Shown piece after piece: positions 49,271 through 62,000 of a stretch of DNA of 64,000 nt (position 1 is its first letter; every line of letters begins with the position of its first letter). The notes beneath the pieces were generated by a model, which was not told the DNA's origin, did not search any database, and saw only the letters and a program-made list of their open reading frames with translations. The position numbers and the translations under genes were made by a program. The stretch lies in assembly GCF_009068765.1 (NCBI RefSeq), contig NZ_CP035534.1:1302001-1366000 (forward strand), written 5' to 3'. The DNA is from Sulfurimonas hydrogeniphila (GTDB lineage Bacteria; Campylobacterota; Campylobacteria; Campylobacterales; Sulfurimonadaceae).

Positions 49271-50319
49271 GTTGGATTGTTTCACTTTTAGTCCTCTCCG
49301 GACTTATATTTTTCCATGAGCTTGGGCATTTCACCGTAGCACGCCTGATGGGTGTCTATGTAGAAGTATTTAGCATAGGTTTTGGAAAACGTCTTTTTAC
49401 TTTTCGGGCTTTTAATACAGAGTGGAGTATTTCAGCCATTCCTCTTGGCGGCTATGTCAAGATGAAAGGTCAGGATGATGCGGACCCGAGTAAAAAAAGT
49501 TACGATGCAGACAGTTACAATACAAAAACGCCTCTGCAAAAGATTTTAATTCTTTTAGCCGGTCCTGCAGCAAATTTTGTGCTTGCATTTATACTCTATT
49601 TCATTATAGCACTTGGCAATCCTCAGGTTTTAGCCCCTGTTGTGGGAACGGTTATCAAAGACTCCCCTGCCTATGTTGCGGGTCTTGAGTCCAATGATAC
49701 CATTATGAGTATAAACGGCAAAAAAATCACAAGCTGGAAAGAGATGGCACAAATGATTGCAGAGGCAAAAGGCTCTGTTGCACTGCAGGTGGACAGAAAC
49801 GGCTATCTGAAGCTCATAACACTCAAACCAAAACTGCAAACCGCCAAAAACATGTACGGAGAAGATGTCAAACGCAAAATGATAGGCATATCCGCTGCGG
49901 GTGTCATGCATGAACAAAAACTGGACTTCGCAGACAAATTAAAATATGCCACCGATCAGACTGTTTTTGCCTCTACTTTGATTTTTACCGGTTTGAAAAA
50001 ACTCGTGATGGGGGATGTCCCGGCTTCGGAAATGGGCGGAGTTATCTCCATTGTAAAACTCACATCCGATGCAACGGCAGTAGGCTGGATGAGTGTTTTG
50101 TTTTTTGCGGCATTGATTTCTGTAAACCTCGGGGTACTGAACCTGCTCCCTATTCCGGCACTTGACGGCGGACATATCATGTTTAATTTATATGAACTCC
50201 TCTTTAGACGAGAACCGAGCGAAAAAATAGTCATTAACCTGACAATAGCCGGCTGGGTCATACTCTTCGGGCTTATGGGACTTGGAATTTTTAACGATAT
50301 TAACAGATTAGTTGGCTGA
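49267..50319 (+). CDS. rseP: RseP-type site-2 zinc metalloprotease (350 aa)
   Basis: Intramembrane protease with HExxH in LIFFHELGHFTVARLMGV (His18/Glu19 region), a periplasmic PDZ domain (VVGTVIKDSPAYVAGLESNDTIMSINGK, residues ~125-155) and the second metal motif NLLPIPALDGGH (residues ~295-306). Cleaves membrane-anchored regulators in envelope stress. The last codons (from 50310) come from the integrated element: the 17-bp attL core ends in the codon for Leu of DINRLVG, so the C-terminus is rebuilt by the element. Confidence 0.92.
   Translation: MSWIVSLLVLSGLIFFHELGHFTVARLMGVYVEVFSIGFGKRLFTFRAFNTEWSISAIPLGGYVKMKGQDDADPSKKSYDADSYNTKTPLQKILILLAGPAANFVLAFILYFIIALGNPQVLAPVVGTVIKDSPAYVAGLESNDTIMSINGKKITSWKEMAQMIAEAKGSVALQVDRNGYLKLITLKPKLQTAKNMYGEDVKRKMIGISAAGVMHEQKLDFADKLKYATDQTVFASTLIFTGLKKLVMGDVPASEMGGVISIVKLTSDATAVGWMSVLFFAALISVNLGVLNLLPIPALDGGHIMFNLYELLFRREPSEKIVINLTIAGWVILFGLMGLGIFNDINRLVG
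50293..50309 (+). repeat. attL core of the integrated element
   Basis: AACGATATTAACAGATT occurs here inside the last codons of rseP and again at 61295-61311 in front of yggS. These are the only two copies noticed, and they bracket a block of integrase and phage-type genes. The bases beyond the core still allow translation of RLVG and a stop on both sides. Confidence 0.88.
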
Positions 50320-50423
50320 TAAAATTACAGCTAACTACAACTGCCCACAAATACCCCAAAATTAGGGCTTCTAAAGAACTTCTTAAACTACAAGACGCTA
50401 CAATGAAATATAAATAATTACAG

Positions 50424-50466
50424 AAATCCCTACTTTTTAGGCTAAAAATGGCAAAAAGTAGGGATT
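50424..50466. repeat. Left-end inverted repeat of the element
   Basis: AAATCCCTACTTTTT (50424-50438) faces AAAAAGTAGGGATT (50453-50466). The near-identical structure is found at the other end of the element (61204-61247). It lies about 115 nt inside attL and 20 nt before the integrase start, where arm-type integrase sites or a terminator would be expected. Confidence 0.7.
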
Positions 50467-50485
50467 GTGTTCAAAGGTCGTATTT

Positions 50486-51760
50486 ATGGGTTCAAAAGCA
50501 CTAAAACCACAAAAGATTAGAATCAACAACAATACGGCTTCTGGTATGTATATTCTTTTGTATGATGATGAAATTAGATTTACAAAAGACAATGAAACAA
50601 AACCGCCAAATAGAATTTATCAAATACAAATTGCAGTTGAAGCAATGTACAATCATAAAAGATGTAGAGGTAAAAAAAACTTTACTATCCATAAAGGTAC
50701 AAGTATCATCAAAGCAGTTGCAGATATGCAAAAATACAAAGTCGAAATGCAAACAACGTTGCGGGAAAAAGGAACACTCAAACAAGAAAGAAAAAATTTC
50801 AAGCAGATCAACAGCAAGGACAGAAAACTATCATCTGTTTATGAAGCATGGATAAATGGAAAAAAGATTAATCAAAGTCCGACCACTGTTCGCCTTTATG
50901 ATGGCTGCTATAATACACATCTTACAAAGCTCAAAAATAAAATCATTGATGATATTACCGAAGATGATATCCAAAACATTATAAATACTATGCTTAACAA
51001 TGGCAAATCTCCATCAACTATAAATATGGTAAAAATGGTTATGAAGCCACTTTTAGATATTAATGATGTGCAGCTTAATTGGAAGAAAATAATATTGCCA
51101 AAAAATGATAAAAAAAGAACTTTTAAAGGAACTGATGAAGATGCAAAAAAAATAACAAAAGCACTTTTAGAATATAAACATCCTATTATGAGAGGTATAT
51201 TCGCTTTTTTGCTTAGTGGCAGGAGGATAGGAGAAACATTACAACTTGAATACAAGCATATTGATTTTAATTCTGATACTTTTACGTTACCCAAGGAAAT
51301 AACCAAAACAAAGACATCATCCACTTATGTTTTAACTCCCCTGCTTCTTAATGCCATAAAATCCCAAAAAACGACCACAGGAAAAATATTTGCACTCAAA
51401 AGGGATGCTGTAAACTATCATTTCCATAAAGTTATGCAAAGCATTAATGTTCACAATATGGTTATGCATGACATACGCTCAATGGTAGCAGTTGTTGCAC
51501 TTAGAAACGGAGCTGACATATACGCAGTAAGTAAAATGCTCTCACATAAGCTTTTATCTACTACTGAAAAATCATACATTGGAAACGGCACGGAAAGAGC
51601 TATAGAAGCCCAAAATACTTTTTTAGCAGTTGCAGGCAACACTGGCAATGTAATAGATGTCGAAGTGAGTGATACTGACACCGAATATGAAGCACTAAAA
51701 AAAATATATCCAAATGCAACAGATGAAAAAATATATGAGATTATGGAGATGATGAAATGA
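50486..51760 (+). CDS. Tyrosine-type site-specific integrase (424 aa)
   Basis: ATG at 50486 with AAAGG upstream is preferred over a TTG at 50465. N-terminal arm-binding part rich in Lys, SAM-like core-binding domain (SKDRKLSSVYEAWINGKKINQSP onward, residues ~115-205), catalytic domain with Arg in LLSGRRIGETLQLEYKHID, Lys in ITKTKTSSTYVLTP, HDIRSMVAVVALRNG (H-x-x-R), MLSHK and the nucleophile Tyr in TEKSYIGNG. Lies next to attL, the usual arrangement. Acidic C-terminal extension after residue 370. Catalyses insertion into and excision from rseP. Confidence 0.92.
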   Translation: MGSKALKPQKIRINNNTASGMYILLYDDEIRFTKDNETKPPNRIYQIQIAVEAMYNHKRCRGKKNFTIHKGTSIIKAVADMQKYKVEMQTTLREKGTLKQERKNFKQINSKDRKLSSVYEAWINGKKINQSPTTVRLYDGCYNTHLTKLKNKIIDDITEDDIQNIINTMLNNGKSPSTINMVKMVMKPLLDINDVQLNWKKIILPKNDKKRTFKGTDEDAKKITKALLEYKHPIMRGIFAFLLSGRRIGETLQLEYKHIDFNSDTFTLPKEITKTKTSSTYVLTPLLLNAIKSQKTTTGKIFALKRDAVNYHFHKVMQSINVHNMVMHDIRSMVAVVALRNGADIYAVSKMLSHKLLSTTEKSYIGNGTERAIEAQNTFLAVAGNTGNVIDVEVSDTDTEYEALKKIYPNATDEKIYEIMEMMK

Positions 51761-51804
51761 AAAATATTCAAGATGTTATAGATGATATTTTAAGGGGCAT
51801 GTAA
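51757..51804 (+). CDS. Micro-ORF linking integrase and the 51804 gene (15 aa)
   Basis: MKNIQDVIDDILRGM starts in the integrase stop (ATGA) and ends in the ATG of the next gene (TAATG). The chain of overlaps would let ribosomes continue from integrase to the 350-aa gene. AAGG inside it serves as the ribosome-binding site for that gene. It may be only a coupling device. Confidence 0.4.
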   Translation: MKNIQDVIDDILRGM

Positions 51805-52856
51805 TGGCAAGACCAAGTAAAAAAACTTTAGAACTAAGAAAAAAAATATTAGATACTGAAATATTTAAAAGAGATAATAGCATTTATGAAACACTTAATG
51901 ATATCGCTCAAGATAGTAACAAATACTCAATTGCATATTATTTTTCCTTAAAATGTTTTTCAAGAAATCCAGATAGGGGAAGAGGAAATATTGTAGCTGA
52001 CATAATAGAAGAAAAAATGAAAAGTGACCTTAGAAAAGAACAGGCATATATTTTATTAAGAAATCTTAATGAAGATATTGCAGAATATTACTTAACTGTT
52101 CTTAAAGATGAAAAACTTTTTTATCAAGACAAAGAGATGATAAACAACAAATATTTTATTGAAAATGAATTAGAGGTTGCTATTATAAAAAATGCTCTAA
52201 GCAAAGACAGAACAAAATATTTTTTTAATGAACTTATTAGCTTAACATTAAATGATATGACAGATAATGAGTTTATTGATTTCCCATTAACAAAAATTGA
52301 AAAAAACGAGATTATAAATTCATTAAATGAACATGGATGGAGAGCTGATAAAACAATAATTCATTTATCTGTATTGCCTAATGAAATTGAAAGTATTTTA
52401 AATGATAATAAGAATAAAAATGTATTTGCAGAACTTGACTTAACAAAATCAAAAGAGGAAATTTTAGAATATGTTTCAAAACTAAAAGATGATTTTGATG
52501 ATGACCCATCACAATTTCCAAATGCCTATGAATTTTTAGGAGAAAAACAAGAGGTATTTAGTTGCGATTTGAAACAATGCGACATATATAAAGATACACG
52601 AAGTTTAAAACCTATTAATGGAAGATTATCTGATGTGCTTTTTATTTATGACTGTAAAAAAGTCAATGAGATTTTAGGAGCTGATGTATTTACAAATGAA
52701 TATATTACAGATGAAATAAATAGATACTGGCAAGAAATAAAAAATATTTCCACTGATGGGTTTCATTCTTTAGATGAATATTATGCACTTGCAAAAGAGT
52801 ACATAAACAATCAGAAATACAAAGATTATTTAACAGGAATAAAACATCCACTATAA
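51804..52856 (+). CDS. Hypothetical protein, possible cargo gene (350 aa)
   Basis: Begins MARPSKKTLELRKKILDTEIF; strongly charged and helical, Asn/Lys/Glu/Asp-rich, no signal peptide or membrane segment, no known motif. There is a Cys pair in FSCDLKQCDIY (residues ~249-259). It is directly downstream of the integrase in the same transcript, the position where many satellites and islands carry accessory or defence genes. No function can be assigned; base composition is more AT-rich than the chromosomal genes. Confidence 0.65.
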   Translation: MARPSKKTLELRKKILDTEIFKRDNSIYETLNDIAQDSNKYSIAYYFSLKCFSRNPDRGRGNIVADIIEEKMKSDLRKEQAYILLRNLNEDIAEYYLTVLKDEKLFYQDKEMINNKYFIENELEVAIIKNALSKDRTKYFFNELISLTLNDMTDNEFIDFPLTKIEKNEIINSLNEHGWRADKTIIHLSVLPNEIESILNDNKNKNVFAELDLTKSKEEILEYVSKLKDDFDDDPSQFPNAYEFLGEKQEVFSCDLKQCDIYKDTRSLKPINGRLSDVLFIYDCKKVNEILGADVFTNEYITDEINRYWQEIKNISTDGFHSLDEYYALAKEYINNQKYKDYLTGIKHPL

Positions 52857-52961
52857 AACTAACTTACAATAAATGGGGTTATTGAAATCCCGTTAAATAC
52901 CTCTTTTTAAATCTTTTTTTTAGTATCAAAATACCCCTATCAAAACATAGGAGTACATCAA

Positions 52962-53171
52962 ATGACAACAAACTACACGGACTTAATCCCAAATAAAGTT
53001 TTATTTAACCTAAGAGAAATTGACGACTTGGGTATTATTAAGATGGATATGGCAAAAAAGCTTATTTCCAAAGGAATACTTGAAACTGTACGAGTAGGAA
53101 CAAAGATACATGTATCGAGAGCCGTACTTATAAAGTACCTCGAAGATAACACCGTAGCAGTAGCAAGTTAG
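52962..53171 (+). CDS. Excisionase-like winged-helix protein (69 aa)
   Basis: Small protein with MDMAKKLISKGILETVRVGTKIHVSRAVLIKYLE (residues ~28-61), the AlpA/Xis-type pattern for a DNA-binding excisionase. Preceded by AGGAG. Opens the replication gene cluster. Likely controls excision or gene expression of the element. Confidence 0.65.
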   Translation: MTTNYTDLIPNKVLFNLREIDDLGIIKMDMAKKLISKGILETVRVGTKIHVSRAVLIKYLEDNTVAVAS

Positions 53172-53180
53172 GTTACTGTC

Positions 53181-53741
53181 ATGTCAAGCATCAAACATTA
53201 TGTATATGCAGCCATAAAAGATAATCCCTCACGCTATGCCGTTGATGGTGGCGACTTACACCTGATAAATGACTACTTTATATCGCAAGGGTGGCAACCT
53301 TTGATGATTGAGCAGCATAAGGCTATTGCAGGAGTGATACGACAGCGAAACGAGTTCTTAAAAGACGATACTAATCGTGCTTATGATTTACGAAAAAGAA
53401 AAACGGCTTATGTACATGTAGGGCAGACAAGTATCTTTGATTTTTTAGATGCTGACACAAAAGAACAGCTGCCTAAAATCATAAAATATTGGAGTGCTGA
53501 TGCTTCACGCTTTGAGTATTCAAATAGTAGAATTAAAAAAAGCATAAGAGGCGTTGATGATGAGCATATAACCGCTGCAAAAGTGATGTTGCCTCTCCTT
53601 GTAGCAAACCCACAACTCAAACAAAAACGAGTAAAAAAAGCGAATATTGGAGACACACACAAAGTACCAACCGACCGAGCTTTAAACAATGTTTATGATG
53701 GAGTATTGGAGACAAATTATGATGAGGTAAAGCAAGGGTAG
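53181..53741 (+). CDS. Hypothetical protein in replication cluster (186 aa)
   Basis: MSSIKHYVYAAIKDNPSRYAV at the start; basic, mixed alpha/beta, with a Lys/Arg-rich second half (LKQKRVKKANIG). No recognised domain. It lies 9 nt after the excisionase-like gene and 24 nt before the primase-like gene, so it is probably needed for or regulated with replication of the element. Confidence 0.6.
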   Translation: MSSIKHYVYAAIKDNPSRYAVDGGDLHLINDYFISQGWQPLMIEQHKAIAGVIRQRNEFLKDDTNRAYDLRKRKTAYVHVGQTSIFDFLDADTKEQLPKIIKYWSADASRFEYSNSRIKKSIRGVDDEHITAAKVMLPLLVANPQLKQKRVKKANIGDTHKVPTDRALNNVYDGVLETNYDEVKQG

Positions 53742-53765
53742 CACCCCTTGCCTATAAATGCATAA

Positions 53766-55364
53766 ATGAATTGTAGCACAAATTCTATACTTTTATCAAC
53801 CACAATCGCTGCCAATAAAAAATCAGTATATGGTTTTGAAGTGACAGAACTTGCTTCACTTGATGAGCTGATTCGTGTCATGAACACAAAAGCGGTATCA
53901 AGTGGACTTTATCTCAACGGACACAGGCATCAAAACTTCTTAAAAGCGTGTGGCAATGTTTACTTTATTGATATTGATGTAGCACCAGTAGCCAATGAAG
54001 TTCCTTACTATAAAACAATCGAACAAAAGTTAAAAGATAAAAATGTATCTTTTGTAAGCGTACCAAGCCAAAGTGCAAATGCGTACCCTTATAAAAGGCA
54101 CATAGCAATTATTCTTAATGGATGCTTACCAACAAGCACAAAAGCTTTTAAACTTGCTTCACTTTTCATACTTGATTATTTATGCATTGACATTTCAAAA
54201 ATAGATGAAGCGGTGGCAAATGATGTTACACGACAATTAGCACCGGCAAATATAAATCATAACTTTACAAATATTGATGAGATGTCAAACTATTATGAAA
54301 GTGAGCCTTTATCACTTCCAAGTGAATACAAAGCCAAATACACCACTCAAAATGAACATAGCAGCGATATTTCAACAAACAGTATGATAACTTTTGCAGA
54401 TGGCACGACCGTATCAATTTATGATGCAAAAAAACTTGTAAGTGCCGGTAGCAATAAATCTTGCTATTGTGTCAATCCAACACATGACGATACAAATCCA
54501 AGTGCAACTTTTTATCACAATGTGGACGGAACTGTAAAACTGTTTTGCGGAAAATGTGGCAATATTAAAATCTCAACTCATTTTATTCCAACTACTCCAA
54601 CAGTTGCACATCAAAATTACAACTATTCGATTGTCATCAAAAAAGATGATACAAGCCCTACAAATGATTTACTCGCAAAAATAGGCAAATATACATACGA
54701 AACACAACAAAGCTTAATTTGGCACTTCAAAGTTAATTCTATGAGTGATATCTATATGCTACTTCTTGCAAAATGCTATTTAGTTGATAATTGTTTTGAA
54801 GTATCGACAGTAATGCCAAGTAAAGTAGCACAAATACTTTTAAATGTTGATGTGTTGAAGCCTTTGACCGTAAACCAAACATTACCGACTGTTTTTATAA
54901 AAGCAACTTCAAAATTGACACCGCTCCAAGTCCGGTATATGCAAATGAAGCAATACATACAGCGAAGCGGTTACTTATTTGTTGAAGCATCAATATTTGC
55001 TACATTTCAAAACATTATCAATCCAAACCGTGATTTTATCACTACATGTAATCTGGGTTTGGCATATTTTGAACACATACTAAAAGTACAGCAGGAGCAA
55101 CAGGGCTTGATGCAAAAGGACAAACTATTTCCTATGAAATTACAAGGCAAGGCAAAAGTGAAAGCAAATCAAAAGCGTACAGAAAAATCAACCAAAACAA
55201 AACACTCAAATATGACAAGTAAACAAAAGCAGGTTATGAAGCTTTTAAAAAATCCAAACTATCTTAAAAGTAATGGCAAACCAAACATCACACTTATAGC
55301 AAATAAATTAAATATGCATCGTAGCACTGTTCATGAATATATAAAAAAGGTGAGTAACAAATGA
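53766..55364 (+). CDS. Primase/polymerase-like replication protein with zinc finger and HTH (532 aa)
   Basis: The N-terminal ~190 residues contain VYFIDIDVAPV (metal-binding DxD), YPYKRHIAIIL and NDVTRQLAPA, the pattern of archaeo-eukaryotic-type primases found on plasmids and phages. Residues ~225-270 hold a Cys-rich zinc-binding segment with CYCVNPTHDDTNPSATFYH and FCGKCG, CHC2-like. The last ~45 residues (MTSKQKQVMKLLKNPNYLK ... MHRSTVHEYIKK) form a helix-turn-helix. The domain set argues for initiation of DNA synthesis on the element. Its stop overlaps the 57-aa gene at 55361. Confidence 0.7.
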   Translation: MNCSTNSILLSTTIAANKKSVYGFEVTELASLDELIRVMNTKAVSSGLYLNGHRHQNFLKACGNVYFIDIDVAPVANEVPYYKTIEQKLKDKNVSFVSVPSQSANAYPYKRHIAIILNGCLPTSTKAFKLASLFILDYLCIDISKIDEAVANDVTRQLAPANINHNFTNIDEMSNYYESEPLSLPSEYKAKYTTQNEHSSDISTNSMITFADGTTVSIYDAKKLVSAGSNKSCYCVNPTHDDTNPSATFYHNVDGTVKLFCGKCGNIKISTHFIPTTPTVAHQNYNYSIVIKKDDTSPTNDLLAKIGKYTYETQQSLIWHFKVNSMSDIYMLLLAKCYLVDNCFEVSTVMPSKVAQILLNVDVLKPLTVNQTLPTVFIKATSKLTPLQVRYMQMKQYIQRSGYLFVEASIFATFQNIINPNRDFITTCNLGLAYFEHILKVQQEQQGLMQKDKLFPMKLQGKAKVKANQKRTEKSTKTKHSNMTSKQKQVMKLLKNPNYLKSNGKPNITLIANKLNMHRSTVHEYIKKVSNK

Positions 55365-55534
55365 TGAATAATATACATTTATATAGCAGATACATATCCG
55401 ACACTTTTAACACCTTACAAAGTGCGAATTTTAGGGCTTTAAAATCAGTAAGCAAATACATATCCGACACTAATCCGACACTTTTTAAATTTAAAAATAT
55501 CAAAAAAACTAATAAAAAGGAGTATTTGAAATGA
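55361..55534 (+). CDS. Small protein overlapping iteron-like repeats (57 aa)
   Basis: Begins in the primase stop (ATGA) and ends in the ATG of the helicase gene (ATGA): a translational link between them. The encoded peptide contains SRYISDT and SKYISDT because the DNA carries the repeat ATACATATCCGACACT twice plus a half copy (see 55385 entry). It may be a coupling frame only; no homologue is known to me. Confidence 0.5.
   Translation: MMNNIHLYSRYISDTFNTLQSANFRALKSVSKYISDTNPTLFKFKNIKKTNKKEYLK
55385..55488 (+). repeat. Iteron-like direct repeats between primase and helicase genes
   Basis: ATACATATCCGACACT occurs near 55389 and near 55459, and AATCCGACACTTTTT immediately follows the second. 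The copies are 70 bp apart. Direct repeats close to replication genes may be binding sites for the initiator. Confidence 0.5.
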
Positions 55535-57354
55535 TAACTTTACGACCATACCAAAAAGATATCATCCAACAGGCGACCAAAGCAAAAGGCAGTGTTTTAG
55601 TTGAAGCACCCACAGGATCAGGTAAAAGTGTAATGGCTTCAAAGATAGTTGAAAATGAAACTTTAACAGGTGGCAGTGTTTTGATAGTTGCCCCAAAAAT
55701 AACACTGCTTGAACAACTTGCAGATACATTTCAAGACCTCAACCCTCAAATAATTCACGGTAGAAAAGATTACGACCGTAAACATAATGTATTTGTATCG
55801 ACACTGCAAACAGCTCATAAAAAAGATTTAGGTTTTGTACCAAGTATGATTGTCATTGATGAAGTGCATTTTGGATTTAGCGGAAAGATGATTGAACAAC
55901 TTCTGCAAGATTTTAAAGGTAAACTTGTAGGACTTAGTGCAACACCTTATGACAAAAGAGGCAAACCGTTGCAAGGTTTCGAACTACACATTAACAAGTA
56001 TGATTTAAACTATATGATAAGCAACGGCTATTTAGTTCCGCTTATAAGTTACCAACCCATAAAAGTTAATCTCAAAGATATACGAACAACGGCAGGAGAT
56101 TATAATCAAAGCGATTTGGAAGAAAAATTTAATACTATTGAAAGTGTTATGCAGGTGGTGGATAGTACAAAAAAGATGATACAAAGACGTAATCAAGGTT
56201 TGGTGTTCGGTATCACAATTAAGCATAGTGAAGCCCTTGCAGATGCATACAATGATGCAGGAGTTCCAACAAAGGCGATACACTCAAATCTTAGTGCTGA
56301 TGAACAACAACAGATAATGAGCGAGTTTAAAAGTAAAAAGCTAAAACTACTCACTAACCCGGATATGCTCACAACAGGCTTTGACTATCCACCGTGCGAT
56401 GTCGTTGTTCTTGCACGAGCTACCAAAAGCCAAAACTTATATAAGCAGATGGTAGGACGGGTATTACGACTTGCGCCAAATAAAGATAATTCTGTCTTGC
56501 TTGATTGTGCAGGTGTCATAACTGATTTAGGATTACCGACTGCACCCATAAAGCCAAATAAAGAAAAAGTAACTGATGCAATAAAAAGTACATGTAATGA
56601 GTGCGGAAGCAGTCGAGTATATCGAACACTGAAAAATAATCAGGCTTTTAAGGTATGCGCTGCATGTGGATTTGATGAAATTGTCGAGAGTGAACAAGGG
56701 TATGAGTGTTGCGAGTGTGGATTAATACACGGCAATGATGCAAATTTCTTTGTCAAAGATGAAAAGTTATTTTTGAAGTGTAGCAGTTGTAAAGCATCAA
56801 CGGTTATAAGTGAAGCAACCACACATGATGAACTCAAAGCAATATTTGATAAAAACATTGTTGAAGCGATTAAGAGCAGAATAACCGCACAGTATGTTAC
56901 ATGGCTGATTGATAATCATAATGCAATGTTTCCATTTAATAATGCCGTTATACAACAGATAAAAGCACTCCATAGTTATATTGAAGATAATCCACATGTG
57001 CTTTACAACTTCAACAGCAGCATGATTAAAAGTGACGGGTGGAGCATTGTAGAATACAAACAAAAGCCTGCAATAAATATTGAAACATTGAAACAAAAGT
57101 TTTTTAGCATCAAGGGTACCGGCATCATTGAAGCGATAAAAAATTTAAATATTGTGCTTGAAGCCGAACATAAAAATGTCATCAATGATGATGTACTGCA
57201 AACAGTTGTGCATCAAATCAACAGCTCACGGATAAACGGCATTGAAGCAATGACTATCCAACGACTTAAAAATATTTATAGCAATAAAAAAGATTGTAAC
57301 AGCATAAAAAACTTTGTGCCATACATTGAGCGCAAACGAGGAGCGTCTCCTTAA
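55531..57354 (+). CDS. SF2 DEAD/DEAH helicase (607 aa)
   Basis: Motif I VEAPTGSGKSVMA (residues ~24-36), DEVH motif II in SMIVIDEVHFG, motif III GLSATP, and the C-terminal VGRVLRLAPNKDNSVLLDCAG (motif VI), as in UvrB/type III restriction-type helicases encoded by phages. Residues ~365-430 hold three C-x2-C pairs (CNECG, CAACG, CCECG, CSSCK), so a zinc-ribbon insert. It probably unwinds the element during replication. It overlaps the 57-aa gene and reads into a phage-type cluster. Confidence 0.85.
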   Translation: MITLRPYQKDIIQQATKAKGSVLVEAPTGSGKSVMASKIVENETLTGGSVLIVAPKITLLEQLADTFQDLNPQIIHGRKDYDRKHNVFVSTLQTAHKKDLGFVPSMIVIDEVHFGFSGKMIEQLLQDFKGKLVGLSATPYDKRGKPLQGFELHINKYDLNYMISNGYLVPLISYQPIKVNLKDIRTTAGDYNQSDLEEKFNTIESVMQVVDSTKKMIQRRNQGLVFGITIKHSEALADAYNDAGVPTKAIHSNLSADEQQQIMSEFKSKKLKLLTNPDMLTTGFDYPPCDVVVLARATKSQNLYKQMVGRVLRLAPNKDNSVLLDCAGVITDLGLPTAPIKPNKEKVTDAIKSTCNECGSSRVYRTLKNNQAFKVCAACGFDEIVESEQGYECCECGLIHGNDANFFVKDEKLFLKCSSCKASTVISEATTHDELKAIFDKNIVEAIKSRITAQYVTWLIDNHNAMFPFNNAVIQQIKALHSYIEDNPHVLYNFNSSMIKSDGWSIVEYKQKPAINIETLKQKFFSIKGTGIIEAIKNLNIVLEAEHKNVINDDVLQTVVHQINSSRINGIEAMTIQRLKNIYSNKKDCNSIKNFVPYIERKRGASP

Positions 57355-57412
57355 TATCAAAAATAAATATTCACAAAAAATACATTACAAAAAAGAAAAA
57401 GGACTAAAAACA

Positions 57413-57787
57413 ATGCAAAATACAGCAGTAAAAACAAAAAGAAAATATGAGAAAAAATTAACAAATGCTATTAAAAAAGTAGGCGGTATTTCTCTTAAAA
57501 AAGAGGGTGTAAATATTGACTTTATCTCATTAGCAGAACCAAAAGGGTTATATGCAGTCGATAACTATGATATTGATTTTGTGAAGATAGAAGCAATAGT
57601 GCAAGAAGTATCAACAGGCGAGGTTATGGCATTTAATAAAGAGTTTGGAGTAATGCGGTTAGAGTTTGATTTTATGGGAAGTAGAGAGGCGTGTTATAAG
57701 TTTCTACTTGATGAAAAAGAGAATGATGCCGAAGCAATAGCACGACTTCATTTAACTATAAACGAAGGGGCAAGTGATGAAAAATAA
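57413..57787 (+). CDS. Hypothetical protein (124 aa)
   Basis: The frame extends to 57314 but that part overlaps the helicase; the ATG at 57413 follows AAAGGA and begins MQNTAVKTKRKYEKKLTNAIK. Mixed alpha/beta with an acidic end (NEGASDEK). No known family. It overlaps the next gene's start by about 11 nt. Part of the element's early gene cluster. Confidence 0.55.
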   Translation: MQNTAVKTKRKYEKKLTNAIKKVGGISLKKEGVNIDFISLAEPKGLYAVDNYDIDFVKIEAIVQEVSTGEVMAFNKEFGVMRLEFDFMGSREACYKFLLDEKENDAEAIARLHLTINEGASDEK

Positions 57788-58073
57788 TGAACTTACAATA
57801 GCCGAACTTTTAGAGAGTGCTTCTCCTGAAATGTTAGAGATTATTAAAAAAAGAGTGATGGGAGAAGATATAAAAAAACAGGCAGGTAAAAAGTACGAAG
57901 CATATTTAAGTTGTGCTCAAAATAATTACACTTCACGGGTAAATGCTCAAAACCTACTGGCATTAGAAAGCGGACTGCTGCAAAATTTACAACGTGTACA
58001 GGAAGCACTCGATCAAGAGTGGAGCATAGAAGACCAAAGAACGGCAAGAGAGGTTTTGGAAGATGGAAAATGA
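57777..58073 (+). CDS. Hypothetical helical protein (98 aa)
   Basis: MKNNELTIAELLESASPEMLEI; predicted all-helical with Glu/Gln-rich stretches and no domain recognised. The start could also be the GTG at 57774. It overlaps its upstream neighbour and its end overlaps the 57-aa gene at 58063 by 11 nt, the compact style of phage-like clusters. Confidence 0.55.
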   Translation: MKNNELTIAELLESASPEMLEIIKKRVMGEDIKKQAGKKYEAYLSCAQNNYTSRVNAQNLLALESGLLQNLQRVQEALDQEWSIEDQRTAREVLEDGK

Positions 58074-58236
58074 AATAAAAATAACACATATACATCAAGG
58101 CAAAGATGACGAGAGCAGCTTTATAGAGTTTATCAAGTTAGATAACGGAAAAACTTTATTATTGCAATGGAACTCTTTTATAAAGCGGTTTGGCGTTGAG
58201 GTCATAGAAGCCTTTAAAACCTCAAGACCACAATAA
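58063..58236 (+). CDS. Hypothetical small protein (57 aa)
   Basis: MENEIKITHIHQGKDDESSF, beta-rich start followed by a helix; ends KTSRPQ. Starts within the preceding gene (11-nt overlap). The length and overlap fit a real compact gene, but no family is recognised. Confidence 0.5.
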   Translation: MENEIKITHIHQGKDDESSFIEFIKLDNGKTLLLQWNSFIKRFGVEVIEAFKTSRPQ

Positions 58237-58321
58237 CAAGTATTTGTACTTCCAAGCCGAAACAATGGCTTAGAGGTGCATTTATGTTAAAATAACCACT
58301 ACATCAATAAAAGGCGTGTAA

Positions 58322-58516
58322 GTGGAATTTTGGGAACAAAAGAACAGATTAAAAAGTAAACCTACACTAAAGAATAAAACCATCTTGACGCTTGAACAGA
58401 TTTGTAAAAAATATAATCTATCAATGGGAATGGCTATTGAAAGCATTTTTGATAATAAAATAGATTATTTATCGGAACATGAAGAAGTTAAGGATATGGG
58501 CTACATGAGCTTATGA
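58322..58516 (+). CDS. Hypothetical protein (64 aa, GTG start)
   Basis: Starts with GTG after the weak GGCGTG leader; MEFWEQKNRLKSKPTLKNKT. A helix-turn-helix-like TLEQICKKYNLSMGMAIESIF (residues ~24-44) suggests DNA binding. It is the last gene before the 146-bp repeat array, which starts at its stop. Low confidence because the ribosome-binding site is poor. Confidence 0.4.
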   Translation: MEFWEQKNRLKSKPTLKNKTILTLEQICKKYNLSMGMAIESIFDNKIDYLSEHEEVKDMGYMSL

Positions 58517-58855
58517 TCCAAAGAATGTGCCAGGAAAGAAGAAACTATGCAGCGTTGGCAACTCGTCTAACTTTGTGTGTTCTCAAGCAGAAACTTAGCA
58601 CAGTTGCTTACTCATCTAACTTTGTACGAATTTGGCAGAAACTTACCGGCAAGTAAACATGGTCCAAAGAATGTGCCAGGAAAGAAGAAACTATGCAGCG
58701 TTGGCAACTCGTCTAACTTTGTGTGTTCTCAAGCAGAAACTTAGCACAGTTGCTTACTCATCTAACTTTGTACGAATTTGGCAGAAACTTACCGGCAAGT
58801 AAACATGGTCCAAAGAATGTGCCAGGAAAGAAGAAACTATGCAGCGTTGGCAACT
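58517..58855 (+). repeat. 146-bp tandem repeat array (2.3 copies)
   Basis: Copies start at 58517, 58663 and 58809 (partial, 47 bp). Each unit contains a 47-codon frame (from an ATG just ahead of or in the unit, ATG[AG]TCCAAAGAATGTG) ended by TAA, then AC and the next ATG. Inside the unit TCTAACTTTGT and GCAGAAACTTA recur at ~47-49-bp spacing, so the unit itself is a degenerate triplication. The copies are identical. The third copy ends in an unrelated sequence. Confidence 0.85.
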
Positions 58856-58929
58856 TATAATAAAAAAGGTACTCCTTAGAGGTTTATCACTTGCGGGTAG
58901 TGTGAACCTCATCATTTTACTATTTTACT

Positions 58930-59045
58930 TTTTTTTTCAAAGTGTAAAGGAATTTGGTTATTTTAATATTTCTTTAAAGTGTAAGCGAACAGGTGTAAAG
59001 GAATTGCGGTACATGTAAAGGATAGTGTAAAGAATAAAGCCCTAC
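58930..59045 (+). repeat. Iteron-like repeats GTGTAAAGGAAT
   Basis: Five copies with variation: GTGTAAAGGAATT at ~58942, GTGTAAGCGAAC at ~58979, GTGTAAAGGAATT at ~58993, ATGTAAAGGATAG at ~59012, GTGTAAAGAATAA at ~59026. They lie in the gene-free stretch after the tandem array. Closely spaced direct repeats in an AT-rich region are typical of plasmid or phage origins. Confidence 0.55.
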
Positions 59046-59174
59046 ACGCCTTTTTTACTTCAAAAGCGATAATGATACATCAAAAGAGAGTTAAGAGGTT
59101 TTAGCGTGATTTTTGTGATGATTTTAATGTAATCTGTAAGAAGCCTAAGAGGTGGTTAGTCTCTTAGGTTGTAG

Positions 59175-59258
59175 TTATTGCTTTATAGCAAAAAGTAAAT
59201 ACACTATTGCTATAAGCAAATAGCCTACGGTATGAAGATTGAAAAAATCGGGTATCAT
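59175..59258 (-). CDS. 27-aa membrane peptide, possible type I toxin
   Basis: ATG at 59258, with AAGG 8 nt upstream. The peptide starts MIPDFFNLHTVG and contains YLLIAIVYLLFAI before ending KQ: one short transmembrane helix of the size of known small toxic membrane peptides. The ribosome-binding site and start codon lie in one arm of a long inverted repeat whose other arm (59355-59380) sits in the mRNA leader, so translation would be masked unless the leader is opened. See the RNA candidate at 59313. Confidence 0.55.
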   Translation of the reverse strand: MIPDFFNLHTVGYLLIAIVYLLFAIKQ

Positions 59259-59380
59259 TTTTAAACCTTACAACAATCTAACCCCATAACCCAACCATCT
59301 AAAAAATAGACCAAAAAAAAAGCCCTACCACTCAATAAAGAGCGATAAGGCTTAATTGTTGCAAAGTTTGATACCCGATT
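59246..59380 (-). promoter_or_regulatory. Long leader hairpin masking the start of the 27-aa peptide
   Basis: Arm 1 (59355-59380) and arm 2 (59246-59277) pair over TGATACCCGATT and then ATTGTTG-x-AA-x-GTT, with a 5-6-nt bulge. Arm 2 contains AAGG and the ATG. Between the arms lies the terminator at 59313-59353. The shape is that of an autoinhibited leader. Confidence 0.65.
59313..59353 (-). terminator. Intrinsic terminator inside the leader of the 27-aa peptide
   Basis: On the minus strand AAGCCTTATCGCTC pairs (allowing G-U) with GAGTGGTAGGGCTT across a 6-nt loop and is followed by nine T. It would end most transcripts before the peptide gene. Confidence 0.7.
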
Positions 59381-59414
59381 AAAAACTTCACACACAAAGC
59401 AACCACGCTTTGAT
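59313..59414 (-). ncRNA. Candidate ~100-nt structured RNA, possible antitoxin RNA
   Basis: A promoter TTGACA (59446-59451), 19 nt, TATAAT (59421-59426) on the minus strand predicts a start near 59414. The RNA would carry a perfect CAAAGC/GCTTTG hairpin, then arm 1, which is complementary to the start region of the peptide mRNA, and stop at the terminator ending near 59313. It could act in cis (attenuator) or in trans (antisense to the peptide mRNA). Confidence 0.5.
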
Positions 59415-59420
59415 GCAAGA

Positions 59421-59451
59421 ATTATAACACAGTTTATTTAATATGTGTCAA
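59421..59451 (-). promoter_or_regulatory. Promoter of the structured RNA
   Basis: TTGACA at 59446-59451 and TATAAT at 59421-59426 on the minus strand, spacer 19 nt, both consensus hexamers. Confidence 0.6.
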
Positions 59452-59542
59452 TGCCTATAAACGAAATAAGTCAATACACCATCCTAAGGGTATAAACACC
59501 ATAGTAAAACGCCCTCTAAGGGGTTATTTTAAGAACATAAGC

Positions 59543-59758
59543 CTACTCTTTACAAACATTAGCACGGATGATTTCTTTTAATTCCTTACAGTCTTTGTTC
59601 TCTATGTAGAGATTTAGCCATGATTCTACCCATAAAGGCACATTAGAACTTCCACCCCAATTATTAACTGCTGATGTAGATAGCTCAAATTTTACAGCAA
59701 ATTCTTTTTTTGAAAACCCAGCTTTTTTGAGAAGTTCGTTTAATTCCATTTTATCCAT
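59543..59758 (-). CDS. Small helix-turn-helix repressor (71 aa)
   Basis: AAGGTG precedes the ATG at 59758. MDKMELNELLKKAGFSKKEFAVKFELSTSAVNNWGGSSNVPLWVESWL: a phage-repressor or Cro-like helix-turn-helix at residues ~10-35 (FSKKEFAVKFELSTSAVNNW). Divergent from the small-gene cluster at 59907-60945, with operator-like TTAGTAAC words in between. Likely the immunity or control repressor of the element. Confidence 0.75.
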   Translation of the reverse strand: MDKMELNELLKKAGFSKKEFAVKFELSTSAVNNWGGSSNVPLWVESWLNLYIENKDCKELKEIIRANVCKE

Positions 59759-59768
59759 TTTTACACCT

Positions 59769-59895
59769 TGTTACTAAAATATGTAACAAATTGTATCATA
59801 AATTACATTATTTAGTAACTATCTATTGACTTACTTACTAATATTAGTATATAATACTTGTATAAAAGATAAAAACTTACTTTAATTAGTAACTA
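59769..59895. promoter_or_regulatory. Divergent promoter and operator region of the repressor
   Basis: Plus strand: TTGACT (59826-59831), 18 nt, TATAAT (59850-59855). The palindrome TACTAATATTAGTA (59836-59849) fills the spacer, and TTAGTAACTA or TTACTAAAATATGTAAC words occur on both sides (near 59769, 59809, 59883). Repressor binding there would shut the rightward promoter. Confidence 0.7.
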
Positions 59896-59906
59896 AAGGC
59901 TAAAAA

Positions 59907-60065
59907 ATGAAAACTTACCAAACACTAAACGACATCAAAGACGAAGTCACAAAAGATGAGCTTTTAGAGATTATCGGATTATCTCTTGATGCTGGTGTAT
60001 CTATTGAAGAAGCAATAGTGGAGTTTATAGAGGCAAATTATGAAGATTTACAGGAGGTAGCATAA
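59907..60065 (+). CDS. Small acidic hypothetical protein (52 aa)
   Basis: MKTYQTLNDIKDEVTKDELL, acidic and helical; ends LQEVA. First gene to the right of the divergent promoter, stop overlaps the next start (TAATG). AAAGG lies upstream of the ATG. Function unknown; early small gene of the element. Confidence 0.55.
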   Translation: MKTYQTLNDIKDEVTKDELLEIIGLSLDAGVSIEEAIVEFIEANYEDLQEVA

Positions 60066-60334
60066 TGCAAGTATCAAGATACAAAACAGCGGAACTTATC
60101 AAAGCTACAAACGGAAAAATCTTTGCGTGTGAGTTCATCAAAAAAGATGGCTCATTTAGAAAGATGGTGGCACGTCTGGGAGTTGCCAAAAATCTTAAAG
60201 GAGGTAAAAACGGAGTGAGTAATAAAAACAGCTTAGTGACTGTTTGGGATATGCTGGCAGGTGGTTATCGTATGATTAACCTATCTACACTTACAGCGTT
60301 AAAAGTTGCAGGTGTTAAATACGAGGTGGTATAA
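60065..60334 (+). CDS. SH3-like beta-barrel (DUF2693) protein (89 aa)
   Basis: MQVSRYKTAELIKATNGKIFACEFIKKDGSFRKMVARLGVAKNLKGG, then VTVWDMLAGGYRMINLSTLTALKVAGVKYEVV: the pattern of the DUF2693 SH3 beta-barrel fold seen in many phages and integrative elements (family knowledge). Probably binds nucleic acid or protein. AGGAGG precedes it. Part of a chain of overlapping small genes. Confidence 0.75.
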   Translation: MQVSRYKTAELIKATNGKIFACEFIKKDGSFRKMVARLGVAKNLKGGKNGVSNKNSLVTVWDMLAGGYRMINLSTLTALKVAGVKYEVV

Positions 60335-60335
60335 G

Positions 60336-60506
60336 ATGATAACAATCACAGTCACTGACAAAACAGCCGAAGCGATAAATATCCTTAATGATAGATATTA
60401 TTTCGGACTGTTTGAGCATTTAACCGCAAATAGTGAAGAAGAATATCTTTTCAGAGATGCAATCGAGAAGATAGCAAAATCAATTCAAGAGGAGAAAAGA
60501 AAATGA
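60336..60506 (+). CDS. Hypothetical small protein (56 aa)
   Basis: ATG at 60336 follows GAGGTGG and starts MITITVTDKTAEAINILNDR; helical, acidic. Overlaps the next small gene (ATGA). No family recognised. Confidence 0.55.
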   Translation: MITITVTDKTAEAINILNDRYYFGLFEHLTANSEEEYLFRDAIEKIAKSIQEEKRK

Positions 60507-60613
60507 AAGTAAAAGTGTTCCTGCCGTATGGCTACAAGATATTACATGTAACAGGTGCTGATGGTATTCAGTCAATAGCAAAAAAATATTTAAGATGGGA
60601 GTATGTGTCATGA
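60503..60613 (+). CDS. Hypothetical micro-protein (36 aa)
   Basis: GAGGAG precedes the ATG; MKVKVFLPYGYKILHVTGAD, beta-strand-like start, ending WEYVS. Overlaps both neighbours by ATGA motifs, which supports that it is translated. It contains the only TTACATGTAA in the element (60542). Confidence 0.5.
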   Translation: MKVKVFLPYGYKILHVTGADGIQSIAKKYLRWEYVS

Positions 60614-60945
60614 GTACAGAAAATAAAAAATTAATGTTATACGGTTTCAAAGATTTAGATTTGCAAGTAAAAAAGCTTGAAATGGTGGAATTGTCTCTAA
60701 GAGAAGATATTGAAACATACATGTATATGTTAGAAGATAAAAAAGAAAACAGCAGTGCGGAAGACGTTAGATTTATAATGCTTGATTTATTGACAGCTAT
60801 ACGAAGAAACGCAACGGCACTTGATGGTTTTATAGATGATATGAAGAAAGCAAGTGTTAGAAAACTAAAAGAAGACAATCCGCGAGCCGGAGAAATAGAA
60901 ATCTATTTTAATGAAGATTTTAAAAAACAGTTTGCCAAATGGTAA
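60610..60945 (+). CDS. Hypothetical helical protein (111 aa)
   Basis: ATG at 60610 overlaps the previous stop. MSTENKKLMLYGFKDLDLQVKKLE, then coiled-coil-like helices with high Glu/Lys content and a helical C-terminal half that ends QFAKW. Last gene of the rightward cluster before the element's right end. Function unknown. Confidence 0.6.
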   Translation: MSTENKKLMLYGFKDLDLQVKKLEMVELSLREDIETYMYMLEDKKENSSAEDVRFIMLDLLTAIRRNATALDGFIDDMKKASVRKLKEDNPRAGEIEIYFNEDFKKQFAKW

Positions 60946-61294
60946 TAGTTTTCGGTCGAAAAATTGGCGACCCAATATGAAAGTGGCAAAGGAAGAATAG
61001 ATAAAAGACGGCAAGATTACGGCAAGGCGGAGGGTATATAAAAATTCTACATGTAATAGCCTTTTGGTTCATCGGACACTTGGTCACGATTTTATCGGCG
61101 TTATGTTTCAGAATTTAAAAAAGGTTTCACTAAATATAGTAGTAAATTTATTGTAAAGAAGTAAATAGTATAATTCTGTAAAAATATATTATTGTATTTA
61201 AAAAAATCCCTACTTATTTTAGTATTTCTATCATAAAGTAGGGATTTAAAAACAACTATAAGCACTATAATTAGGGCTTTAATTGAATTTTAAC
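60946..61294. other. Right-end non-coding region of the element
   Basis: No gene. It contains TATAAT at 61169-61174, which may be an outward promoter, the inverted repeat at 61204-61247, and the word ATTAGGGCTT near 61272 that also occurs near 50365 at the left end. Confidence 0.5.
61204..61247. repeat. Right-end inverted repeat of the element
   Basis: AAATCCCTACTT (61204-61215) and AAGTAGGGATTT (61236-61247) with a 20-nt spacer. Same arms as at 50424-50466. A symmetrical pair of such repeats near both att sites is an element-specific feature. Confidence 0.7.
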
Positions 61295-61311
61295 AACGAT
61301 ATTAACAGATT
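61295..61311 (+). repeat. attR core of the integrated element
   Basis: AACGATATTAACAGATT, identical to 50293-50309. Followed by GGTAGGATAAG, which restores the original rseP ending (DINRLVG, TAA) and provides AGGA, the ribosome-binding site for yggS at 61326. Confidence 0.88.
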
Positions 61312-61325
61312 GGTAGGATAAGAAA

Positions 61326-62000
61326 ATGGACGAAATTGAATACAAATTATATATAGATGATGTTATCAGACGGGTTGAGACGGCACGTCTAAAGGTAAGT
61401 GAACACCATATAGTAAAAATTGTTGCTGTGAGCAAATACTCAACGGCTGATGAGATAAAAAGACTGTACCATATCGGTCAGCGTGCTTTTGGGGAGAATA
61501 AGGTACAGGATTTAAAAGCAAAAGCAAAAGAGCTTGAAGAGTTGCCGCTTGAATGGCATTTTATAGGCAATCTGCAAAAAAACAAAATCAACAACCTTTT
61601 AGATATTAATCCAAGTCTTTTTCAGGCACTTGATTCATTGGAACTTGCCCATGAACTGCAAAAAAGACTTCTGGCAAAAGAGATGACGCTTGAGTGCCTT
61701 TTGCAGATCAATTCGGCAAAAGAAGAGAGCAAGCACGGTGTTATGCCTGAGGATGCCATAGAAACCTACAAGCAGATTATGCAGGAGTGTCCGAACATAC
61801 ACCTTAAAGGTGTTATGAGCATAGGCGCACACAGTGATGATGAGCAGCTTGTAAGAAAAAGTTTTGAGACGACCCATGCAATCTATGAGCAGCTTCCAAA
61901 TGCAACAATCTGTTCTATGGGAATGAGCCAGGATTTTGAGCTCGCTATTGAGTGCGGGTCAAATATGGTTCGCCTTGGCTCCATTATGTTTCCCAAGTAA
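61326..62000 (+). CDS. yggS: YggS-family pyridoxal phosphate homeostasis protein (224 aa)
   Basis: PLP-binding TIM-barrel protein. KIVAVSKYSTADEIKRLYHIGQRAFGENKVQDL (residues ~29-61) has the Lys of VAVSK that forms the aldimine, and EWHFIGNLQKNKIN is the phosphate-site segment. Ends with MGMSQDFELAIECGSNMVRLGSIMF, the family C-terminus. Before the element integrated it followed rseP directly. Confidence 0.93.
   Translation: MDEIEYKLYIDDVIRRVETARLKVSEHHIVKIVAVSKYSTADEIKRLYHIGQRAFGENKVQDLKAKAKELEELPLEWHFIGNLQKNKINNLLDINPSLFQALDSLELAHELQKRLLAKEMTLECLLQINSAKEESKHGVMPEDAIETYKQIMQECPNIHLKGVMSIGAHSDDEQLVRKSFETTHAIYEQLPNATICSMGMSQDFELAIECGSNMVRLGSIMFPK

Follow-up and report, generated by a model that had tools for sequence, protein, structure and literature searches.

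What a hydrophobic peptide of 27 amino acids does behind a promoter, a structured RNA and a terminator is the question raised by a short, self-contained transcription unit of Sulfurimonas hydrogeniphila, which occupies positions 59451-59132 on the minus strand of the window (the whole stretch of 64,000 nucleotides that was analysed). We consider it likely that this module is a toxin-antitoxin-like system with a single promoter, in which RNA-RNA pairing of the type I kind is combined with a layout like that of the type III system ToxIN.

An earlier, sequence-only reading of this DNA had described a consensus promoter followed by a hairpin, an arm complementary to the start of the peptide, a terminator with nine T residues and the peptide itself, and every one of these parts was found in this order on the minus strand. 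The promoter (59421-59451) has TTGACA at 59446-59451 and TATAAT at 59421-59426, the latter within an extended -10 sequence (TGTGT-TATAAT; TGTGTTATAAT), but its spacer of 19 nt is off the consensus. Transcription is predicted to start at about 59414. The RNA begins with a 5' hairpin, H1 (59395-59412); when 16 homologs were compared with RNAalifold, several of the 7 pairs of this stem showed compensatory changes. The antisense arm, defined by folds and by the pairing test described below, spans 59355-59394 with a core at 59355-59380; the core, read 59380-59355, is complementary to TGATACCCGATT (12/12) and, with G-U pairs, to ATTGTTGTAAGGTT in the start region. In the minimum-free-energy fold of the short RNA it belongs to a hairpin, H2 (59361-59391), with the antisense sequence in the loop and on the 3' side. 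The intrinsic terminator H3 (59313-59353) consists of a 14-bp stem (59320-59353), which co-varies in homologs, and the T9 tract (59313-59321). A G-rich, C-poor linker (59277-59299; GATGGTTGGGTTATGGGGTTAGA) leads to the translation start region that pairs with the arm (59246-59277), with the Shine-Dalgarno (SD) sequence AAGG at 59266-59269 and the AUG at 59256-59258, and to the peptide ORF (59175-59258; MIPDFFNLHTVGYLLIAIVYLLFAIKQ). The unit is closed by T2 (59144-59168), a second terminator-like hairpin with a weak T tail, recognised from its sequence and absent from the earlier list of parts; a hairpin 3' of the peptide was also seen in most other module copies that were read. The same part order recurs in 60 annotated modules, that is, beyond chance.

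The module is the only copy in its genome and sits within an integrative element of 11.0 kb (50293-61327) in the 3' end of rseP (named from its translation). A direct-repeat search delimited the element by imperfect att repeats at 50293-50325 and 61295-61327 with the common sequence AACGATATTAACAGATT. Its genes include a tyrosine integrase (50465-51760; phrog_1), a phage-type helicase (phrog_16), a WYL_2 protein and a small phage-type transcription regulator. The element looks satellite-like, no structural phage genes being recognised among the ten proteins scanned. A tandem 146-bp repeat (58513-58855; 2.3 copies, 98-99% identical) ends the plus-strand genes and adjoins the module; among the ORFs of the window, no convincing minus-strand gene lies between T2 and these repeats.

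Homologs were collected by searching the DNA of 200 genomes from the family, by a peptide search, by a pattern scan and with two covariance models, R1 and R2, and those from the DNA and peptide searches keep the same order of parts. R1 and R2 matched in 36 and 62, respectively, of the 135 genomes of the genus (E <= 0.01), and R2 in 18 of 299 genomes of the order (E <= 0.001). Model matches alone are no proof; a script then demanded a terminator, pairing of the arm with downstream sequence and a plausible peptide. The 60 intact modules comprise 53 distinct ones annotated in this way (16 of class A, 34 of class B and 3 of class D) and seven of class E read by hand, the class counts being approximate because at least one class B entry (L165) has a misassigned ORF. 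Sulfurimonas accounts for many of the modules; additional genera of the order contribute others, and one lies on a phage contig. The peptides follow DxHTVGYLxIAxxYLxFAxK in class A and MLLRxxILLLILGYLTKLF in class B/C; class D (MDFLxxFIAVIAVLVTLFREEIRxxL) occurs in one other family of the order, where its members (L144, L150 and L158) have the same layout and G-rich linker, and class E (MFFKLAVLLLIFLIFAIKLY and similar) in two further families. One class A copy on a viral contig stands beside a tape-measure-like gene. Among the matches of the viral scan L076 is the only real module, and the linker-motif matches L241-L243 were rejected as chance. Rfam gave no match for the module RNAs or within the window; no peptide class matched Pfam or NCBIfam, and matches to PHROG were insignificant.

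The arm and the start region change together. Alignment of the arms with MAFFT was unreliable, so each arm was paired instead with every start region of its class. In class A the pairing of an arm with its own start region reached -35.5 kcal/mol, compared with -22.4 kcal/mol for those of other members, and in class B the values were -33.0 and -22.9 kcal/mol; in neither class did any of 20,000 permutations reach the observed mean. Class D points in the same direction with three members only and no power. L066 and L074, which lie on one contig and encode near-identical peptides, each pair more strongly with their own start regions (-28.1 and -26.6 kcal/mol) than across (-21.2 and -23.5 kcal/mol). 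Even the silent wobble base of a His codon co-varies with the arm (GC in 7 cases, AU in 6, GU in 2, mismatch in 1).

Folding of the minus-strand region agreed with the masking that the sequence-only reading had proposed. The predicted fold of the full transcript is far more stable than shuffled sequence (-103.1 kcal/mol versus -62.6 +/- 5.2; z -7.75, reached by 0 of 200 shuffles), and the short RNA gave a z of -5.63. Pairing with the arm is predicted to cover some 40 nt of the start region, divided into two blocks; the linker stays unpaired. The claim that AAGG and AUG are both paired with the arm in the same RNA stands for AAGG and for the U and G of the start codon, but its A is unpaired in the predicted fold. 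Without the arm, the predicted unpaired fraction of the start region rises modestly in the class A average, from 0.31 to 0.41, and more in the copy of the window, from 0.30 to 0.59. Antisense RNAs typically fold hairpins, and a hairpin inside the arm was present in all 53 short RNAs of the script-annotated modules; H1 and H3 both show compensatory changes among homologs. A TATAAT-like box and an upstream TG are conserved in class A, the -35 sequence is not, and 52 of the 53 modules have a -10 box matching at 6/6 or 5/6 positions upstream of the RNA. An internal promoter for an arm-free toxin mRNA was considered and rejected, a 5/6 match to the -10 box occurring in only 8 of 53 modules. Across the 53 modules no promoter is conserved between H3 and the ORF, so that only processing or refolding would yield an mRNA free of the arm, as has been described for other toxin mRNAs (PMC11228461).

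The peptide itself is conserved in homologous elements, where its absence would have spoken against the sequence-only reading. Its codons, as judged mostly outside the paired region, are under purifying selection (pN/pS of 0.35 in class A and 0.28 in class B), and SD-like sequences and start codons are kept across homologs. The module peptides are hydrophobic ORFs of 18-31 amino acids with a putative membrane role. The peptide is nevertheless patchy and dispensable within the genus (13 of 135 genomes), and its losses are asymmetric. Eight class A loci (L218-L225) keep the promoter, H1, arm and H3 after deletion of the peptide; their breakpoints after H3 differ, and in two of them remnants of the peptide ends are left. 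Among 16 class A peptides of full length, 14 lie immediately behind an arm, a palindromic insertion of about 280 bp separates one from its arm, and a contig end cuts the last. None of the 15 testable ones lacks an arm, although strongly diverged orphans would be missed, as most assemblies are draft MAGs and every search set out from known members. Recurrent RNA without peptide, and never peptide without RNA, is the pattern expected of an antitoxin and its toxin. At what is apparently the same site beside the 3' end of tpiA, two genomes carry intact modules (L063, L066) and a third the RNA alone (L218); these natural alleles make the function of the module directly testable.

This asymmetry also bears on the strongest competing explanation, a purely cis-acting attenuator that limits a useful, non-toxic small membrane protein and yields the short RNA as a mere by-product. 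Since the arm always shares a transcript with its target, cis folding alone would repress. A by-product, however, would not explain why eight loci keep the RNA gene from promoter to terminator after the peptide has been deleted, nor does attenuation fit well with so patchy and dispensable a peptide, and neither ligand-binding nor leader-peptide features were seen. We regard this explanation as unlikely. The earlier reading had named an attenuator beside a type I-like toxin; attenuation alone is the less likely of the two, since the unit contains no gene beyond the peptide and the short RNA is kept where the peptide has been lost, whereas the type I toxin-like reading agrees with a hydrophobic peptide under selection, a co-varying arm, a predicted masked fold and the retention of the RNA after peptide loss.

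For the toxin-antitoxin-like module we propose the following course of events. Most transcripts would end at H3 and give a structured antisense RNA of roughly 100 nt containing H1, H2 and H3, while a minority would continue past H3 and contain both the arm and the peptide cistron. In the read-through RNA the arm would fold onto the SD/AUG region, so that the primary mRNA would be inert, and the free short RNA could pair with the peptide start region in trans. Given the arm already present in cis on the mRNA, this trans role is not strictly needed. The terminator H3 would keep the antitoxin RNA permanently more abundant than the toxin mRNA. The peptide, which is probably a membrane-active toxin, would be freed only when little short RNA is present and the arm has been displaced or taken away, as processing might do.

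With the type I systems ibsC/SibC, hok/Sok, tisB/IstR-1, zorO/OrzO and timP/TimR the module shares a hydrophobic peptide of similar size (some 18-31 amino acids) and an RNA complementary to the toxin mRNA, here over about 40 nt around the SD and AUG and co-varying with them; the inert primary mRNA with a masked SD is a further, predicted likeness. Published type I antitoxins are encoded on the opposite strand under their own promoter (PMC12390103), whereas the putative antitoxin RNA of the module lies upstream on the same strand, shares the promoter and is also contained within the toxin mRNA. In layout the module resembles type III systems (ToxIN, AbiQ, CptIN, TenpIN) and AbiF: ToxIN consists of a promoter, an antitoxin RNA, a leaky terminator that few transcripts read through, and a toxin (PMC4147584), AbiF of a single promoter, an RNA, a leaky terminator and a toxin gene (PMC12373285), and in the module the order of promoter, RNA, terminator and presumed toxin is conserved, with the terminator, at the sequence level. 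The RNAs of those systems, however, bind the toxin protein, which is an RNase in ToxIN and its relatives, whereas the module RNA is predicted to pair with mRNA. Type III RNAs have tandem repeats, of which the module RNA has none, and its toxin would be a membrane peptide, the 27-aa ORF being without a family match.

Within the same phylum, the AapA mRNA of Helicobacter pylori contains an upstream anti-SD sequence that masks the SD (PMC6733600). The module resembles AapA/IsoA in its small, predicted membrane peptide and in an SD masked from upstream in its own mRNA, and no Rfam or protein-family match links its RNA or peptide to that system, AapA having been compared by eye only. IsoA is a separate antisense gene, we know of no terminator between the anti-SD and the toxin of AapA, and by eye we take the module peptide to be unlike the AapA sequences. 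The nearest antisense precedent within one operon is P1 c4-icd-ant, which, like its P7 counterpart and the CI RNA of P4, places an antisense RNA in the operon of a small growth inhibitor that it silences (PMC8198154). The module RNA differs in being ended by a predicted terminator, and the peptide is the last in its unit. The c4 RNA arises by processing of a transcript and not by termination, and translation of icd is coupled to that of ant. The earlier statement that no described system is arranged in this way holds for the limited literature searched, where absence is no proof, but it had missed the layout parallels of ToxIN, AbiF and P1 c4-icd. What appears to be new is chemistry of the type I kind, as suggested by the predicted RNA-mRNA pairing, in a type III-like layout and in a conserved family.

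The P1 precedent, a single operon in which downstream genes, among them a growth inhibitor, are silenced by an antisense RNA (PMC8198154), also suggests an immunity switch like that of c4 or CI RNA, in which the short RNA of a resident copy silences the peptide of incoming elements that share its pairing type. An integrative element carries the module of the window, a phage contig carries another, and solitary RNAs would confer protection. Several copies, however, occupy ordinary chromosomal sites, such as that beside tpiA (named by eye from its translation), and no anti-repressor gene follows the peptide, which leaves such a switch improbable, although it is compatible with the toxin-antitoxin reading and does not exclude it. 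That the module is a palindrome in the DNA or the remnant of a repeat, with an ORF that arose by chance and arms without regulatory role, as the inverted repeats around hairpins in mobile repeats and the surrounding 11-kb element might suggest, is largely refuted and hardly credible in view of purifying selection on the codons, the conserved SD, start codon and promoter, and the co-variation of arm and start region.

We propose tentatively, at somewhat less than even chances, that the modules form a distinct, order-wide class of toxin-antitoxin systems whose antitoxin arises, through premature termination, as the 5' end of the toxin mRNA itself, with the conserved G-rich linker as an additional signal. 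If so, a toxin would be kept silent by an aborted version of its own message, its output would report terminator read-through and could respond to altered termination such as phage antitermination, and the divide between type I and type III would be one of chemistry, not of layout. Such modules escape searches that, as in PMC12390103, look to the opposite strand for antisense genes, and others may therefore still be hidden. Sulfurimonas, where the family is frequent, is a major bacterial group of the deep sea and of redoxclines; in the limited set of papers searched, no type I-like system was described for it.

No block of the class A alignments is better conserved than the linker, which contains 46-57% G and 1-4% C; a G-rich, C-poor linker is conserved among modules with unrelated terminators and peptides. 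The exact linker motif of class C/E occurred six times in 397 genomes of the taxonomic class, each time where the model had found a module, and its reversed control not once in the same genomes. Two roles were considered for the linker and rejected. Its pairing with T2 is strong by composition and does not co-vary (own -18.3 versus other -17.8; 494 of 5,000 permutations). A function as a second Shine-Dalgarno sequence or as a binding site for 16S rRNA is not supported either: shuffled sequences bind the anti-SD tail better, and the best matches elsewhere on the 16S rRNA vary by class.

Two further arrangements were seen among the homologs. One locus (L204; G216:C48, approximately 300-600) carries an element of about 280 bp with long terminal inverted repeats (AAGTAAGAGAACACAAATAACTTCATAG), inserted between the linker and the start region of a class A module. 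Another (L012/L162; G077:C10, 26646-27388) is a local array of three tandem modules that differ in their arms, peptides and linker types.
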